A stretch of 62,447 bases of DNA, taken from positions 1-62,447 of the IMG/VR virus record IMGVR_UViG_3300006919_000053, one strand, 5' to 3'. The stretch is from a virus. Both the position numbers and the translations under genes were made by a program. The notes below the pieces were generated by a model. It was given only the letters and a program-made list of their open reading frames with translations. It was not told where the DNA came from and ran no database searches. This document shows positions 1 to 62,447 of this stretch, one piece after another; within the stretch, counting starts at the first letter, position 1, and the number at the start of each line of letters is the position of its first letter.

Positions 1-123
1 CTCTGCTGCCGTCATTTCTGATGCGGTCTTTGGTGTCTTTGACGATACTCTTTTTTTAGGTCGACAGTAAGGTGTCCCTCTTTTTTCTCCCTTTTGTCTT
101 CCACATGGTTTTCCTGTGCGAAC
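1..123. repeat. Terminal direct repeat, left copy (contig closes into a circle)
   Basis: Bases 1-123 are identical to 62325-62447. The repeat lies wholly inside a minus-strand gene that is intact only when the ends are joined. This fits a circular or circularly permuted genome cut at an arbitrary place by assembly better than a true packaging terminus. Confidence 0.93.
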
Positions 124-55028: not shown

Positions 55029-55997
55029 ATGGGATTATTTGACAAAAGGATACCTTACAAACCATTCGAGTATCCAGATTATTATACAGAAGGATGGTTA
55101 AAGCAAGCACAGGCATTTTGGCTTCACACAGAAATCCCAATGTCTGGAGATGTTAAGGACTGGAACGAGAAGCTGACAGATGCTGAAAAGAACTTAGTAG
55201 GTAACATCCTACTTGGTTTTGCTCAAACTGAGTGCGCAGTTTCTGATTACTGGACGCAAAAAGTTGTGTCTTGGTTCCCAAAACATGAAATACAACAGAT
55301 GGCAATGATGTTCGGTTCTCAAGAGACTATTCATGCGGTAGCTTATAGTTATCTTAATGAAACTCTTGGACTTGAGGACTTTGATGCTTTCTTACACGAA
55401 CCAGCTACTGCGGATAGATTCGACAATCTTGTAAGTTACGAGGGCAATGACCCAGTAGGTATTGCAAGGTCGTTGGCTTTGTTTTCAGCCTTTGCTGAGG
55501 GTGTATCATTGTATTCTGCTTTTGCAGTGCTTTATTCGTTTCAGCTCCGTAACTTACTCAAAGGCATCGGACAACAGATGAAATGGAGTGTTAGAGATGA
55601 GTCTTTACATTCTAAGATGGGTTGTCAGTTGTTTAGACACATGTGTGAAGAAATGCCTGAATTAAAAAACCAGGTGAAGCAAGATGTTTTGGATGCGGCA
55701 TCTATCATGCTTGACTTAGAAGAACGATACATCGATAAGATGTTCGAGCAAGGTGACATTGAGAACCTTAAAGCAGAAGATTTAAAGAACTTTATTAGAA
55801 AACGTATCAATGAGAAGATTGCAGAACTTGGTTATGCGGACCATAGTAATCAGTTTGCTTATGACAGCGCTAGCGCTTCTAATCTTGAATGGTTCTACCA
55901 CTTAACTGGTGGAGTAACTCATACAGATTTTTTCGCTATTCGCCCAACAGACTACTCAAAAGCAAATGAGAAAGAGGATTTCGAAGATATATGGTAA
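55029..55997 (+). CDS. nrdB: Ribonucleotide reductase class I small subunit, 322 aa
   Basis: Provides the metal cofactor for NrdA. Predicted ligands: Glu68 (FAQTECAVSDYW), Glu99 and His102 (SQETIHAVAYSYL), Glu157 (FAEGVSLYS), Glu191 and His194 (VRDESLHSK). Tyr106 is in the place of the E. coli radical Tyr122. The first ligand is Glu rather than the Asp of class Ia/Ib; Glu there is known from class Ic and, I believe, Id proteins, some of which use Mn and no tyrosyl radical. No N-terminal ATP-cone. It overlaps thyX by seven bases. Confidence 0.93.
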   Translation: MGLFDKRIPYKPFEYPDYYTEGWLKQAQAFWLHTEIPMSGDVKDWNEKLTDAEKNLVGNILLGFAQTECAVSDYWTQKVVSWFPKHEIQQMAMMFGSQETIHAVAYSYLNETLGLEDFDAFLHEPATADRFDNLVSYEGNDPVGIARSLALFSAFAEGVSLYSAFAVLYSFQLRNLLKGIGQQMKWSVRDESLHSKMGCQLFRHMCEEMPELKNQVKQDVLDAASIMLDLEERYIDKMFEQGDIENLKAEDLKNFIRKRINEKIAELGYADHSNQFAYDSASASNLEWFYHLTGGVTHTDFFAIRPTDYSKANEKEDFEDIW

Positions 55998-56629
55998 AAG
56001 CAAATTCAGTTAAATTATTAGGACACTACGGCAGTGACGAGGTCATTGCTTGTAGTGCTTGGACATCTACGTCGAGAGAGCTTACCGACGAAAAAAGAGC
56101 ACGTATACCTAAGCTTATTAATACCCTTTGGAGAGATGGCCATGAGACGCCATTTGAAAAGGGTATCGTGCACTTTCTGGTGGATTGTGATATAGCTAGT
56201 CACATACACTTATTAAAGCACCGCATATCGTCTCTAAATGCAGAGTCGGCTAGATACAAAGAACTTAAAGAAGATAAGGTCTATGTACCTGTTGACTTTC
56301 CCGACAAGTGGAAGCGTAAATTGTTTTTGCATACGCAAACTTCAGACTCGCTATACCACGAATGTTTGGCTGACATACAAGAGGAGCTTGGAAGAAAAAG
56401 AGCAAAAGAGGCTGCAAGGTTTTTTAAGACCTACAACTCTCAAATACAAGCAGATGTATCTTTCAACATGAGAAGTTTTCACAACTTCTTAGCGCTTAGA
56501 AATAGCGAACACGCTCAACTTGAGATAAGGGATATTGCACAACAGATGTTAGAGCTGGTGCAGAACATTGAAGGAAACCCATTCGAGCACACGTTGCTTG
56601 CTTGGTATAGAAAACAAAAAGGATTATGA
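55991..56629 (+). CDS. thyX: FAD-dependent thymidylate synthase ThyX, 212 aa
   Basis: The signature motif appears as HRISSLNAESARY at residues 77-89, with Arg78 and Ser86 in the RHR-x7-S spacing (the first Arg is Lys76). The upstream GHETPFE (50-56) and downstream SFNMRSFHNFLALRNSEHAQ helix, with the substrate-binding Arg, are also present. It makes dTMP from dUMP using methylene-folate and FAD. Placed between nrdB and nrdA and overlapping both, so the three are made in a fixed ratio. Confidence 0.93.
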   Translation: MVKANSVKLLGHYGSDEVIACSAWTSTSRELTDEKRARIPKLINTLWRDGHETPFEKGIVHFLVDCDIASHIHLLKHRISSLNAESARYKELKEDKVYVPVDFPDKWKRKLFLHTQTSDSLYHECLADIQEELGRKRAKEAARFFKTYNSQIQADVSFNMRSFHNFLALRNSEHAQLEIRDIAQQMLELVQNIEGNPFEHTLLAWYRKQKGL

Positions 56630-58389
56630 TGGAATGGAACAACAAATGGATAGCTGGAGTAGACTATCCGCAGTGGGGAGATACAGAGGTTTATAAGAAG
56701 ACAATCGTTGGCGGTTATCTTCAGCCTTGGGAGTCTCCAAGAGATGCTTACATGAGGGTTGCCTCCACGGTAGCAAGAAGACTTTATAAGCCAGAACTTA
56801 CAGATACGTTTTTTGAATATATCTGGAATGGTTGGCTTAATCTAGCCTCTCCAGTACTATCAAACACAGGTACGGACAAAGGATTACCTATCAGTTGTTT
56901 TGGTATCGATGTTGGAGATAGTATACAGGAGATTGGTTCTAAGAACTTAGAGATGATGCTACTAGCTAAACACGGTGGGGGAGTTGGTATTGGTGTCAAC
57001 ATGATTCGTCCCGCTGGTTCTAAAATTACAGGAAATGGAACATCTGATGGCGTGGTACCGTTTTGCAAAATCTACGACTCAACAATTCTTGCCACTAATC
57101 AAGGAGCAGTCAGACGAGGAGCTGCATCTGTCAATCTCAACATTGAACACGATGACTTTGAGCATTGGCTCGAAATTAGGGAACCAAAAGGTGATGTCAA
57201 CAGGCAATCTCTTAACCTTCATCAATGCGCTGTCGTTGGTGATAAGTTCATGCGAAGACTCATTGAAGGAGATGAATCTGCAAGACAAAGATGGTCTAAG
57301 CTCATCCAAAAGCGTAAAGCTACTGGAGAGCCTTACATCTTATTTAAAGGAAATACAAACAAAGCGAATCCTACAGCTTACAAAGCAAATGGACTCAAAG
57401 TCCACATGACTAACATTTGTTCAGAGATTACTCTGCATACCGATGAGTCGCACAGTTTTGTTTGTTGTCTTTCGTCTGTAAATTTAGCAAAATATCATGA
57501 ATGGAAAAATACCAATCTTATTTACCACGCCATTTGGTTTTTGGATGGTGTCTTGGAAGAATTTATTCAAAAAGCAAAGGGACTACGAGGATTTGAGAAT
57601 AGTGTTCGTTCCGCGGAAAAAGGACGTGCTTTGGGCCTTGGAGTGCTCGGATGGCATACGTACCTTCAACAAAATGGTATTCCATTTGAAGGATTACGAG
57701 CTCAGTTCGAAACGCGCAGAATTTTTAGTCAAATCAAGATTGAGTCCGAGAGAGCTTCGAGAGACCTTGCAGATGTATATGGAGAACCGCTCTGGTGCAG
57801 AGATACGGGTTTTCGGAATACACACCTCAGAGCAATAGCCCCAACTGTCTCAAACTCAAAGCTTTCTGGCAACGTTTCCCCTGGTATTGAACCTTGGGCT
57901 GCTAACCTTTTCACAGAGCAATCCGCTAAGGGTACGTTTATCAGAAGAAACGCAGAACTTGAAAAAGTACTTGATGCTATCGGCATAAACACTCCAGAAA
58001 CTTGGGAGACAATACTTTCTGACAAAGGTTCTGTACAAGGCATTAATGAGTTAGATAATTGGTGTTTTGTTGACGGGCAACTTAACAGGGCAGATGACAT
58101 AGGGGATGCTCCCTGTGATAAAGTCAAAGACGTATTCAAGACTTTTAAAGAGATAAATCAACTTGAATTGGTTAACCAAGCTGGTATACGACAGCAGTAT
58201 GTAGACCAGTCGGTATCTCTTAATTTAGCCTTCCCTTCAGAGGCTTCTCCTAAATGGATAAACCAAGTGCATTTAGATGCTTGGAAGAAGGGGATAAAAA
58301 CTTTGTATTATATGAGAACAGAGTCTGTCCTTAGAGGAGACATTGCAGCAAAAGCAATGGACCCAGACTGTGTTTCTTGTGATGGTTAA
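56626..58389 (+). CDS. nrdA: Ribonucleotide reductase class I large subunit, 587 aa, no ATP-cone
   Basis: Active-site Cys91 (LPISCFG), the NICSEI motif with Asn263, radical Cys265 and Glu267, the second disulfide Cys in FVCCLSSVNL (280/281), the Tyr pair 561-562 (LYYMRTES) of the radical path and the C-terminal Cys582/Cys585 (CVSC) for re-reduction are all visible. At 587 aa it lacks the N-terminal ATP-cone, so dATP shut-off through that site is absent, an advantage for a phage. It overlaps thyX by four bases and is followed by a thioredoxin that could reduce its C-terminal cysteines. Confidence 0.93.
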   Translation: MMEWNNKWIAGVDYPQWGDTEVYKKTIVGGYLQPWESPRDAYMRVASTVARRLYKPELTDTFFEYIWNGWLNLASPVLSNTGTDKGLPISCFGIDVGDSIQEIGSKNLEMMLLAKHGGGVGIGVNMIRPAGSKITGNGTSDGVVPFCKIYDSTILATNQGAVRRGAASVNLNIEHDDFEHWLEIREPKGDVNRQSLNLHQCAVVGDKFMRRLIEGDESARQRWSKLIQKRKATGEPYILFKGNTNKANPTAYKANGLKVHMTNICSEITLHTDESHSFVCCLSSVNLAKYHEWKNTNLIYHAIWFLDGVLEEFIQKAKGLRGFENSVRSAEKGRALGLGVLGWHTYLQQNGIPFEGLRAQFETRRIFSQIKIESERASRDLADVYGEPLWCRDTGFRNTHLRAIAPTVSNSKLSGNVSPGIEPWAANLFTEQSAKGTFIRRNAELEKVLDAIGINTPETWETILSDKGSVQGINELDNWCFVDGQLNRADDIGDAPCDKVKDVFKTFKEINQLELVNQAGIRQQYVDQSVSLNLAFPSEASPKWINQVHLDAWKKGIKTLYYMRTESVLRGDIAAKAMDPDCVSCDG

Positions 58390-58398
58390 AAATTATTT

Positions 58399-58662
58399 AT
58401 GATTGAACTAAAAAAGTTTTATCTGCCTAATTGCAAACCTTGTCAGAATTTACAACCTGTATTAGAAGAAACTGTGTCGGATTACCCCGATGCAGTTTCC
58501 TTACAGGAGTTAAATGTCGAAGAGGAATACGAAGAGGCAATGAAGTATTCAGTAAAAACAGTACCCACCGTAATCTTTATAAAGGATGAGGAGGAGATCG
58601 GAAGAATACGTGGCGTTGGAGCAAAAGAACGCTACGCTAAAATTATAGATAAATATTTATAG
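58399..58662 (+). CDS. Thioredoxin-like protein, 87 aa
   Basis: Redox site CKPC at residues 12-15 (FYLPNCKPC) and the cis-Pro loop KTVPTVIF near 54. At 87 aa it is a minimal thioredoxin/glutaredoxin-type fold similar to phage NrdC proteins. It directly follows nrdA (9 bases) and is the natural electron donor for the ribonucleotide reductase. Confidence 0.85.
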   Translation: MIELKKFYLPNCKPCQNLQPVLEETVSDYPDAVSLQELNVEEEYEEAMKYSVKTVPTVIFIKDEEEIGRIRGVGAKERYAKIIDKYL

Positions 58663-58691: not shown

Positions 58692-58699
58692 TAACTTTG
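58692..58699 (+). promoter_or_regulatory. Bacteroidota-type -7 element before the receptor gene
   Basis: TAACTTTG matches TAnnTTTG and lies 26 bases before the receptor ATG, giving a leader of about 23 bases. The -33 position holds TTA rather than TTG, so the match is partial. The receptor may thus be transcribed by unmodified host polymerase. Confidence 0.55.
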
Positions 58700-58725
58700 T
58701 ATATTATTAACCTTTATAATTTCTC

Positions 58726-61236
58726 ATGAGAAAACTATTTACTTTTTCGTTAGTGGTACTAACAATGGGGCTTTTTGCCCAAGAAGTTGAGCAAGATTCT
58801 ATCTTAACTCAACAATTAGACGAGGTCGTTGTAACGTCTCGTGTTATTGACATCGCTAAAGAGCGGGTGACACCTGTTGCTGTGTCCTCAATCTCTGCTA
58901 GTGATATTTCTTTGAAAGTAGGGAACCAAGAGTTTCCCGAAATCATGAACAACACTCCTGGCGTTTACGCTACTAAACAAGGGGGTGGTTATGGAGATTC
59001 TCGTATCTCTTTACGTGGATTTGACCAACGTAACACATCGTTCCTTATCAACGGACAACCTGTCAATGATATGGAAAACGGATGGGTGTATTGGTCGAAT
59101 TGGCAAGGATTAACAGATGTTGCTTCTGGTATTCAAATCCAGAGAGGTCTTGGAGCGTCAAGACTTGCAGTCCCTTCTGTCGGTGGTACAGTATCTATCT
59201 TCACAAAGACTGCTGAGGTCGCTGAAGGTGGTTCTATCACTCAAATGGTTGGTAATGATGGCTACAGAAAAACTGCTGCTATCTACAACACAGGGAAGAA
59301 CGACAATGGATTTGCAGCATCTATCCTTTTATCTAAGTGGCAAGGAGATGGTTATGTTAACTTTACAGGTGGAGAAGGGTTAACCTACTTCTTTGCTCTT
59401 GGTTACGACCCCGATGACTCTGCTCACGCATTCAACTTATCTGTACTTGGTGCGGGTCAATGGCATCACCAAAGAGATGTTTGGGTATCTATTCGAGACT
59501 ATCAGAACTTCGGCTCTGAGGGTATTGACAGAAGATGGAACACCAATGGTGGTTACTTGAATGGTGAGGAGTACAGTATGAGGCGTAACTTTTACAACAA
59601 ACCACTTGCTACCTTTAACTGGGATTGGGACATTTCTTCCAATGTTCAGTTGAACACGTCTCTTTACGCTTCCGCTGGACGTGGTGGTGGAACAGGACCT
59701 AGAGGTAACAACTTCAGAAATCCTAACATTGACATTTACCCATTCAGACAAGACTTAACTGAGCAGTTTGAAGAGGGCAAAGGGATTGCATCAAGAGATT
59801 CCAATGGATTCATTAACTTTGACCACATTGTTGGAGTTAACAGAATTACAACTGAGGGATATGATGGTCCTATTAGTGGCTTTGCTGGACAGAAAATTGG
59901 AGGCAACAGAAATCCTGGTGGTAATGTAAACCGAGCTGTTCTTGTGCGTCGTGCATCAATGAACTCACACGACTGGGTTGGCGGTATTTCCTCTTTAGAT
60001 ATTACTTCTGGTAAGATGAAGTATTCTATTGGAGTTGACTTACGGAATTATAAAGGGTATCACTACCGAGTCTTAAATGACCTTTTAGGACTTGATGGGT
60101 ATTATTCTGGAGGAAACCAGAACAGCGCGGGACAGATTATCAACACTACTGTTGAGGCTAATCCGTTCAAGAACACAGGGATTAGAGGTCCAAAGATTGA
60201 CTACTACAACATCGGAAACGTAGGTTGGAGAGGATTAAATGGTATGGCTGAATATACTGATGATGATTTCACTGCGGTGTTACAATTCGGTACTTCAACT
60301 CAGAGTTATCAACGAGAAGATTACTTTGACCAACCAGAAAATCCTATCTCTGATAAAAAGAATGTTGCGGGAGGTTACTTAAAAGGTGGTTTTAACTACA
60401 ATATAAGTGATGTCAGTAACGTCTTTGTTAATGGTGGACTTATTTCACGTCAGCCATTGTTTGACGCAGTTTTCCCTAACTACGCAAACGCAATCAATCC
60501 TAACCTTCAGAATGAGAAAATAAACTCTTTAGAAGTTGGATATGGATTTAACAACGGAAAGTTCAAAGCAGACGTCAACGCTTACTCTACGGTATGGGGT
60601 AACCGATTTGTTTCTCGTTCTTTAACGAACCAACAAGGTGTTGATGGATTCGCTCAGTTTAACGATGTAGACGTTGTGCACAATGGTATTGAGTTTGAAG
60701 GTAGATATTTTTATTCTCCTAAAACATCTTTCAGAGGGATGTTATCCATGGGAGATTGGAGATATACTAAGAACTTTGAGGCAGAGTTATTTGACGATAA
60801 TCAAAACCTTATCGGTACTGGTACTCTTTATACTAAAGGTGCTAAGGTAGGGGATGCCGCTCAGTTTACTATGAGCCTTCAAGCCGACCACAGAATTGGT
60901 AGCTTTGCTAAGGTAGATTTAAACTACCGATTTGTAGATGGATTGTATGCTGATTATTCTATTACAGATTCAGACTTTACAAATCCCGATAACAAGGGAG
61001 CACTTAAACTTCCATCTTATGGATTGTTTGATTTAGGTGCTACTGTTTATTTTAGTCCAAGCTTTACGCTTCGTGCTAATATGAACAACGTGTTTGACAC
61101 TACTTACATTGCAGAGTCTAACTCTAATATTCACGCCACACAAGGCTCTAGTACTTGGAATGGTGTCGATGTTAGAAATTCAGTATGGTTCGGATTCGGA
61201 CGTACTTGGAATGCTTCTTTGAAGTATCGATTCTAA
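58726..61236 (+). CDS. TonB-dependent outer-membrane receptor, 836 aa
   Basis: A complete receptor: signal peptide (MRKLFTFSLVVLTMGLFAQ), TonB-box/plug start QLDEVVVTSRV, plug segments (IMNNTPGVYATKQGGG, ISLRGFDQRNTSFLINGQPV, IQRGLGASRLAVPSVGGTVS) to about residue 160, then a 22-strand-type barrel with aromatic girdles and a C-terminal ASLKYRF ending in Phe, as BAM recognition requires. No SusD partner or carboxypeptidase-like N-terminal extension. It has its own -7 element and a strong terminator, so it is an independent unit at the end of the early arm, next to RNR and thioredoxin genes. Receptors of this kind import iron complexes, vitamins or glycans. In a phage it could block superinfection, change the cell surface or feed metal to RNR. 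Frame is intact throughout, so it is probably expressed. Confidence 0.93.
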   Translation: MRKLFTFSLVVLTMGLFAQEVEQDSILTQQLDEVVVTSRVIDIAKERVTPVAVSSISASDISLKVGNQEFPEIMNNTPGVYATKQGGGYGDSRISLRGFDQRNTSFLINGQPVNDMENGWVYWSNWQGLTDVASGIQIQRGLGASRLAVPSVGGTVSIFTKTAEVAEGGSITQMVGNDGYRKTAAIYNTGKNDNGFAASILLSKWQGDGYVNFTGGEGLTYFFALGYDPDDSAHAFNLSVLGAGQWHHQRDVWVSIRDYQNFGSEGIDRRWNTNGGYLNGEEYSMRRNFYNKPLATFNWDWDISSNVQLNTSLYASAGRGGGTGPRGNNFRNPNIDIYPFRQDLTEQFEEGKGIASRDSNGFINFDHIVGVNRITTEGYDGPISGFAGQKIGGNRNPGGNVNRAVLVRRASMNSHDWVGGISSLDITSGKMKYSIGVDLRNYKGYHYRVLNDLLGLDGYYSGGNQNSAGQIINTTVEANPFKNTGIRGPKIDYYNIGNVGWRGLNGMAEYTDDDFTAVLQFGTSTQSYQREDYFDQPENPISDKKNVAGGYLKGGFNYNISDVSNVFVNGGLISRQPLFDAVFPNYANAINPNLQNEKINSLEVGYGFNNGKFKADVNAYSTVWGNRFVSRSLTNQQGVDGFAQFNDVDVVHNGIEFEGRYFYSPKTSFRGMLSMGDWRYTKNFEAELFDDNQNLIGTGTLYTKGAKVGDAAQFTMSLQADHRIGSFAKVDLNYRFVDGLYADYSITDSDFTNPDNKGALKLPSYGLFDLGATVYFSPSFTLRANMNNVFDTTYIAESNSNIHATQGSSTWNGVDVRNSVWFGFGRTWNASLKYRF

Positions 61237-61245
61237 AAACAGAAA

Positions 61246-61274
61246 GGGGAGCTTTAATCGGCTCCCTTTTTTTT
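61246..61274. terminator. Bidirectional terminator where the two arms converge
   Basis: GGGAGC and GCTCCC with flanking AAA/TTT and a loop of about 8 bases form the stem, followed by TTTTTTTT on the plus strand; the A-rich 5' side gives a U tract on the minus strand. It ends the receptor gene on the plus strand and the late operon on the minus strand (the endolysin stop is within the T run). Confidence 0.85.
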
Positions 61275-61635
61275 AATATAACCACATTACTTCTTGTGGC
61301 TTATCTGGGTCTACATCTACATGTATAAATGTTTTCGCTACCCCTACTCTCCGAAAGTTGTATTTCATAAACAACCACATCAAGTGAAAACGGTCCACAC
61401 TATTTTTTACAGATATATCTGCCGCGTATCCGCGAAGATGACTCGAGTCTTTTGTCCCGCCAGCCTTTGCATTATGAGCCTCCGAGCGATAGCCAGAGTT
61501 TATTCTCATAGGTTTTCCGTATTCTTTCCTTACCTCATCAAGCATTTGTATAAGGGTTTCACACATATATTTCTCTCCGCTTCCAGGCTCATCTGGAGAG
61601 TCGAACTCTGAATACTTAAAATACTTAAAACTCAT
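61273..61635 (-). CDS. Peptidase M15 endolysin (D-Ala-D-Ala carboxypeptidase/L-Ala-D-Glu type), 120 aa
   Basis: Zinc ligands are visible in INSGYRSEAHNAKAGGTKDS followed by SHLRGYAADI (His and Asp) and FIHVDVD (His). No signal peptide or TM, so it needs a holin or spanin to reach the wall. It cleaves peptide stems of peptidoglycan. Last gene of the late operon, four bases after the thioredoxin-fold gene, directly before the bidirectional terminator. Confidence 0.88.
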   Translation of the reverse strand: MSFKYFKYSEFDSPDEPGSGEKYMCETLIQMLDEVRKEYGKPMRINSGYRSEAHNAKAGGTKDSSHLRGYAADISVKNSVDRFHLMWLFMKYNFRRVGVAKTFIHVDVDPDKPQEVMWLY

Positions 61636-61638
61636 TTA

Positions 61639-61953
61639 TTATTGTACTGCTCTTACTGCTGCTATAATGTCTTCTTCTTTTACTTCAATCTTAAAGCTTA
61701 GGTTTGCGTTCCATTGTTTTACAGGCTCACTTCCTTTATATAGAATAATAACAGGAACTGCTTGGATTTGAGATTTAATCTCATTGTTTTGGTCTTCTAA
61801 ATAAGCAAACTTATACTTCACACTTGGCGGCAAGTCTGTTATTTTAAAATCATTAACCTTATTCCATTTTGCGTTTATCTGCACGACAGTTAAGTTTTGA
61901 GCCGTAAGCCCAAAAGAAACTAACAATAAAAGTGATGTAACTAAATTTCTCAT
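61639..61953 (-). CDS. Exported thioredoxin-fold protein lacking cysteines, 104 aa
   Basis: A signal peptide (MRNLVTSLLLLVSFGLTAQ) is followed by a thioredoxin-like core: VVQINAKWNKVNDF in place of the usual FxAxWCxxC, a cis-Pro strand VPVIILYKG and a C-terminal helix. There is no Cys in the mature part, so it cannot be a redox enzyme. It lies between a membrane coiled-coil protein and the endolysin, overlapping the former by four bases. A periplasmic lysis factor or spanin substitute is the best guess. Confidence 0.65.
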   Translation of the reverse strand: MRNLVTSLLLLVSFGLTAQNLTVVQINAKWNKVNDFKITDLPPSVKYKFAYLEDQNNEIKSQIQAVPVIILYKGSEPVKQWNANLSFKIEVKEEDIIAAVRAVQ

Positions 61954-62234: not shown

Positions 62235-62447
62235 TTATTTCTTTTTTCTTTTTAGTGATTTAACTCTCCTTGGCTTGCCCGCTGGCTGTCCAATTCGTTT
62301 CTTTTGTGCAATTCGAGACTTCTTCTCTGCTGCCGTCATTTCTGATGCGGTCTTTGGTGTCTTTGACGATACTCTTTTTTTAGGTCGACAGTAAGGTGTC
62401 CCTCTTTTTTCTCCCTTTTGTCTTCCACATGGTTTTCCTGTGCGAAC
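62235..62447 (-). CDS. Small Lys/Arg-rich DUF5872-like protein, 3' part (split by contig end)
   Basis: The frame continues from the right end of the contig to the TAA at 62235-62237, coding for AEKKSRIAQKKRIGQPAGKP and a basic KKK tail. Joined across the junction with bases 1-189 it gives the full 92-aa protein described there. The first 123 bases of this segment (62325-62447) duplicate the left end. Confidence 0.75.
   Translation of the reverse strand, partial: VRTGKPCGRQKGEKRGTPYCRPKKRVSSKTPKTASEMTAAEKKSRIAQKKRIGQPAGKPRRVKSLKRKKK
62325..62447. repeat. Terminal direct repeat, right copy
   Basis: Identical to bases 1-123. Removing one copy leaves a circle of 62,324 bp. Confidence 0.93.

Follow-up and report, generated by a model that had tools for sequence, protein, structure and literature searches.

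A Bacteroidota TonB-dependent receptor acquired repeatedly by unrelated phages and its possible role in the import of nucleic-acid breakdown products

Why a phage should carry a complete outer-membrane receptor, and what such a receptor would bring into the infected cell, are the questions raised by a gene in IMG/VR record IMGVR_UViG_3300006919_000053, a stretch of 62,447 nucleotides that was analysed as a whole and is called the window in the following. The window is a complete phage genome, and its description as circular in the first-pass annotation is confirmed by a 123-bp terminal direct repeat with exact match (Table 1) together with the hallmark TerL, portal and virion proteins. Its TerL is closest to those of podovirus-like phages (Podoviridae sp. 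ctfjg026, Flavobacterium elemo phages, Cellulophaga phages), and no integrase, TonB or ExbBD was found among the Pfam matches of the window proteins. One of 46 scanned window proteins matched the Crassvirus muzzle C-terminal domain PF25729, which hints at a crAss-like tail. The M15 peptidase to the right of the receptor is adjoined by a small protein (61639–61953, minus strand), judged by eye to be exported and thioredoxin-like, that is present in the sister phages as well.

Table 1. Coordinates of the receptor gene, its flanking signals and neighbouring features in the window.
Feature	Position	Strand	Basis
Terminal direct repeat, left copy	1–123		Exact match to 62325–62447
nrdB, class I RNR small subunit	55029–55997	+	Pfam PF00268
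thyX	55991–56629	+	Pfam PF02511
nrdA, RNR large subunit	56626–58389	+	Pfam PF02867
Thioredoxin	58399–58662	+	Pfam PF00085
Putative Bacteroidota-type −7 promoter element TAACTTTG	58692–58699	+	TAnnTTTG match, 34 nt 5' of ATG
TonB-dependent outer-membrane receptor (TBDR), 836 aa	58726–61236	+	Pfam Plug and b-barrel, AlphaFold2 model, PDB fold matches
Signal peptide MRKLFTFSLVVLTMGLFAQ of the TBDR	58726–58782	+	By eye; leader of low confidence in the AlphaFold2 model
TonB box EVVVT, residues 33–37	58822–58836	+	LxEVVV consensus, 81 aligned homologues
Plug domain, residues 47–154	58864–59187	+	Pfam PF07715
22-strand barrel, residues 168–836	59227–61233	+	DSSP on the AlphaFold2 model
Stem-loop and T-run, terminator between convergent genes	61247–61274	+	Sequence; conservation in sister phages and L054
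Peptidase M15, convergent right-hand neighbour	61273–61635	−	Pfam PF08291; syntenic in L002, L003, L082 and L054
Terminal direct repeat, right copy	62325–62447		Exact match to 1–123

The receptor gene is intact, without internal stop, and its product ends in Phe. Both of its Pfam domains score above the cut-off (Plug, E 3.9e-12; TonB_dep_Rec_b-barrel, E 1.8e-10), and the AlphaFold2 model (pLDDT 85, pTM 0.84) contains 22 strands joined by long extracellular loops and short periplasmic turns. A plug inside a 22-strand barrel, preceded by a signal peptide recognised by eye and a TonB box, places the protein among the TBDRs, and the complete receptor originally reported is thus borne out. The fold matches in the PDB are full-length TBDRs (Fiu, FecA, BtuB and FyuA; Z 37–39), and the 50 best entries (Z 31–39) align across the length of the model. 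With E. coli FecA, Fiu, BtuB and FhuA the protein shares the plug and 22-strand barrel fold (Z 33–39), but these are chromosomally encoded, 14–18% identical and have metal or vitamin ligands. Structure prediction, which had been proposed as a check, therefore secured the full TBDR fold, with FecA and BtuB among the matches, but not the ligand, since the Z-scores are tied; the fold ranking was discarded as a clue for the same reason. PqqU, the importer of PQQ, was considered because of its Foldseek rank and received no specific support, and sequence relatives in the PDB gave no clue to the ligand. Against NCBIfam equivalogs for BtuB, siderophore or heme receptors, the window TBDR scores 66 bits where the curated cut-off is 324, 65 where it is 224 and 46 where it is 600. 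No SusD was found among the Pfam matches of the window proteins, in agreement with the first-pass annotation, and the protein is not classed as a glycan importer of the SusC/RagA (SusCD) type.

Such a gene could also have entered a phage contig through chimeric assembly, through packaging of host DNA or as a passenger in decay; indeed, the gene stems from a host family, and a TBDR is mostly absent in the window's lineage. Two contigs from other metagenomes (L002 and L003), however, share with the window the gene order nrdB-thyX-nrdA-trx-TBDR-M15 on both flanks, and a third (L082) shares the right flank, where TBDR-M15 is followed by more phage genes. The same junctions in three other contigs exclude chimerism. 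Their receptors are each 94% identical to that of the window, with a dN/dS of 0.08 in the phage clade, and viral and host loci have hardly any neighbour clusters in common. These findings make an artefact or passenger so improbable as to be negligible, and they uphold the view that the receptor is a genuine phage unit. A further phage with the same TerL type (L054) carries a 69% identical receptor at the same genomic place. Contig L082 (NZGF01000066.1) is filed under the Crocinitomicaceae MAG MED692 and represents a sister-phage fragment, i.e. a viral contig in a bacterial bin; the 94% match in this MAG was therefore rejected as a host copy. Being host-derived, genuinely phage-encoded and under purifying selection, the window TBDR is a phage auxiliary metabolic gene, and it is close to certain that it is a genuine phage-carried receptor of the importer type.

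The flanking signals ascribed to the gene from the outset, a host-type −7 element and a terminator, both recur in sister phages. The −7 element is kept in L002 and L003 as TATTTTTG, and the stem-loop with its T-run is conserved in L002, L003 and L082 and has changed bases in L054; a terminator scan gave no excess over shuffled sequences. Another motif, TATGTTTAA, is located 5' of many T4-like receptor copies. It was considered as a phage promoter motif and set aside, being seen almost solely before the receptor; almost no other gene in T4-like phages has it.

A pattern scan of IMG/VR identified 423 stretches encoding relatives of the window TBDR. Eight TBDR phages were confirmed by hallmark genes, namely the window, L003 and L054 (TerL phrog_6681) and L014, L027, L056, L070 and L078 (T4-type Gp23), the first three representing the podovirus-like lineage of the window and the other five the T4-like phages, two groups that are unrelated. 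The descent of all viral copies from one origin is rejected (dlnL 1069, AU p 0.0004), as it is in the eight confirmed phages alone (dlnL 531, AU p<0.001), where well-supported branches force at least five phage/host changes. The same Bacteroidota host TBDR has been acquired repeatedly by unrelated phages. Two separate captures within the window's lineage (window vs. L054) are not supported (AU p 0.28). Host genomes contain 7–29 TBDRs each and a single copy of the window-type orthologue; as the search was built on this orthologue, the tally of viral copies alone cannot show that phages prefer it. The question of preference is answered in part by a search for the Plug domain in T4-like records, the majority of which had been selected through their kinase gene. 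Most matches there are the window-type orthologue; a second TBDR type of 658 aa is present in two records, and three records have a third one (905–935 aa). A TBDR lies upstream of the kinase in 27 of the 30 T4-like kinase loci with sufficient upstream sequence, and two other TBDR types share this slot. In the related phages L305, L307 and L308, it is the third type (~30–40% identity) that precedes this kinase gene, and a 252-kb T4-like phage record (L014/L290, IMGVR_UViG_3300020810_001156) holds two different TBDRs.

In the window's own lineage the TBDR is a rare cargo. A scan with NrdA gave at least 80 loci, and 50 NrdA-selected records, mostly of the window's lineage with a few T4-like ones, have no Plug domain. 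Since L002, L003 and L054 are not among the matches listed for NrdA, the true TBDR frequency in this lineage is low, not zero. The arrangement of receptor next to nrdA, for which a search of viral contigs had been suggested, does recur in other phages, but the lineage of the window also has nrdA where the receptor is lacking, and the association was rejected as a rule. In relatives of the window phage (L162–L241), an insertion hotspot separates nrdA from the M15/tail genes (g543); it may be empty or hold up to 6 kb of unrelated genes. The NrdA records also bear on the view that the receptor imports iron, heme or another metal complex, in the manner of FecA or Fiu, to supply the iron-dependent RNR of the phage. 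NrdB requires a metal, nrdA adjoins the receptor here and in other phages, several His residues of the TBDR are invariant or nearly so, and the fold matches are mostly siderophore receptors; such folds, however, match all TBDRs, and the NCBIfam scores fall well short of the curated cut-offs. Moreover, neither the phage nor the host receptors were seen to have genes for metal uptake as neighbours, and the 50 phages with a related NrdA do without a TBDR. We regard metal import as unlikely.

The host Bacteroidota orthologue, found beside pgi in many Flavobacteriaceae, is up to 74% identical to the phage protein and shows the same domains and per-site constraint, but it is chromosomal and has an unrelated gene context; no ligand has been published for it as far as the literature was searched. 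Comparing phage with close host copies, per-site entropies agree (r=0.905) and there are almost no fixed differences. The strongest constraint falls on the plug, whereas the extracellular loops are constrained like the strands and far more than the periplasmic turns, and slightly more in phage than in host copies. This same per-site constraint, loops included, favours a working importer over a decoy. At the level of sequence conservation, the pattern is what would be expected of a transporter that kept its ligand, and the phage TBDR likely carries the ligand of the host orthologue. On the other hand, superinfection exclusion or receptor replacement had been proposed earlier, by which a host-like TBDR would titrate TonB, replace the host's phage receptor or alter surface recognition. 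TBDRs are known phage receptors, and phage genes acting on them exist, as Llp of T5 and SIP-1 of IsaakIselin block or are proposed to block TBDRs (PMC12124388). These known exclusion factors are nevertheless small blockers and not transporters, unlike the 836-aa protein, and more receptor copies should increase adsorption rather than decrease it. With shared constraint, no phage-specific divergence of the loops and the recurrence of one orthologue in unrelated phages beside salvage genes, exclusion is disfavoured and appears very unlikely.

Neighbouring genes were examined for clues to the ligand. Most host orthologues adjoin pgi or recA, which does not indicate a ligand, and pgi was judged to be background synteny; no riboswitch was found upstream of 11 host orthologues using Rfam. 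In Arcticimaribacter (L087 and L089) an S1/P1 nuclease gene lies 45–49 bp downstream of the TBDR, and the order in L089 is TBDR, S1/P1 nuclease, CNT nucleoside transporter, LOG and Endonuclease_NS. More distant host homologues are followed 49–56 bp downstream by a gene for a purine nucleoside phosphorylase (L130) or a nucleotide pyrophosphatase (L155), or adjoin one for a PhoD-like phosphatase (L160). In T4-like phages, the TBDR belongs to gene clusters for nucleotide synthesis, where its neighbours are often exported nucleases (PF01223, PF02265), a kinase, a phosphoribosyltransferase or NrdAB. Considering the 55 flanked viral loci, a predicted exported S1/P1 nuclease (PF02265) is found 3' of the receptor in 17, a predicted exported Endonuclease_NS (PF01223) 5' of it in 8, and either of the two in 20, export being judged by eye from the leader sequences. 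All nine expected metal ligands of the S1/P1 nuclease, at the positions generally known for such enzymes, are intact in 21 of 21 aligned sequences; a strict regular expression for the site missed 13 sequences, with variants such as WPD and HQPMH. The operon of L056 reads NrdB-NrdA-EndoNS-TBDR-S1P1-x-AAA_28 kinase, and other viral loci add a phosphoribosyltransferase (downstream), a GMP reductase/IMP dehydrogenase or Trx. The two records in which the 658-aa TBDR takes the slot likewise have an exported nuclease close by. Within the kinase loci the co-occurrence of TBDR and nuclease is not significant (Fisher p 0.23) because nearly every kinase locus has a TBDR, and the nuclease neighbours cluster in a single T4-like group, where a small number of events may account for them. 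Linked genes for exported nucleases and nucleoside handling, as would be expected around a putative nucleic-acid-scavenging importer, are present in these 20 viral loci and in host L089, and not in the window.

Judged from this gene context, mainly that of relatives, the ligand is best read as a nucleic-acid product. An earlier uptake hypothesis is retained in part: uptake is favoured by the shared constraint, but the iron, manganese or vitamin ligands then suggested have no support in any context found, the neighbours in other phages and some hosts being nucleases, a nucleoside transporter, a purine nucleoside phosphorylase and a nucleotide pyrophosphatase. Import of another organic nutrient (organic phosphate, vitamin or oligosaccharide) that generally eases infection would agree with the diversity of TBDR ligands and with a slot that takes other TBDR types, and the ENPP, PhoD-like and S1/P1 neighbours could equally mean phosphate scavenging. 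Nucleoside transporter, nucleoside phosphorylase, phosphoribosyltransferase and NrdAB, however, point to base and sugar and not to phosphate alone, which leaves this alternative rather unlikely. Our preferred explanation, to which we give about even credence, is that phages took over a functional TBDR from a Bacteroidota host and have kept it as an importer of nucleic-acid breakdown products that feed phage DNA synthesis. The receptor would be made during infection; host Sec/BAM would insert it into the outer membrane and host TonB-ExbBD would supply the energy, the phages being without TonB (no TonB_C domain was found in the eight confirmed phages). Exported nucleases of phage or host would release its ligands, i.e. 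nucleosides, nucleotides or short oligonucleotides, and these products would then pass the inner membrane through transporters of the host and supply salvage, kinase, RNR (NrdAB and thioredoxin) and ThyX. Because the window phage has no exported nuclease, the ligand is deduced from relatives at 65–77% identity, and this phage would depend on host nucleases. More tentatively, marine Bacteroidota phages could possibly encode, in part or in full, a nucleic-acid feeding pathway leading from outside to inside, from nucleases through TBDR, phosphoribosyltransferase, kinase and RNR to dNTPs. Nucleases would cut DNA or RNA at the cell surface or in the periplasm, and the phage TBDR would take the products across the outer membrane.

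In the literature searched, with subscription papers outside the search, the only phage TBDRs found are the 'SusC' TBDRs of the marine megaphages Mar_Mega_1 and LR745206, thought to raise nutrient uptake in infection (PMC9723777). They are phage-encoded like that of the window, but belong to genomes of 634–735 kb, and the sections of the source consulted mention the TBDR in passing and describe no nuclease module (PMC9723777). Those of LR745206 and its relatives are 26–33% identical to the window TBDR over about 27–38% of the protein. TBDRs and auxiliary metabolic genes are known kinds; new is one TBDR captured repeatedly together with exported nucleases. Phage auxiliary metabolic genes such as nrd, thyX and pstS increase the precursors for phage DNA, without the action at the outer membrane on extracellular nucleic acid proposed for the phage TBDR. 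Such genes are known for redirecting intracellular material, a picture that would be changed by the repeated acquisition, in unrelated phages, of an outer-membrane gene for probable active uptake. Should nucleic-acid debris be the ligand, lysis by viruses would directly feed the next viral DNA synthesis, with a bearing on the marine viral shunt and phosphorus cycling, and if the feeding pathway is true, infected cells would recycle nucleic acid from already lysed neighbours. In addition, a testable ligand is offered for a widespread, highly conserved and apparently uncharacterised TBDR of marine Bacteroidota. Finally, QueD- and QueE-like genes, in some loci with a FolE-like gene as well, were seen by eye near the receptor in L004, L027, L060, L063 and L071, which suggests 7-deazaguanine DNA modification.
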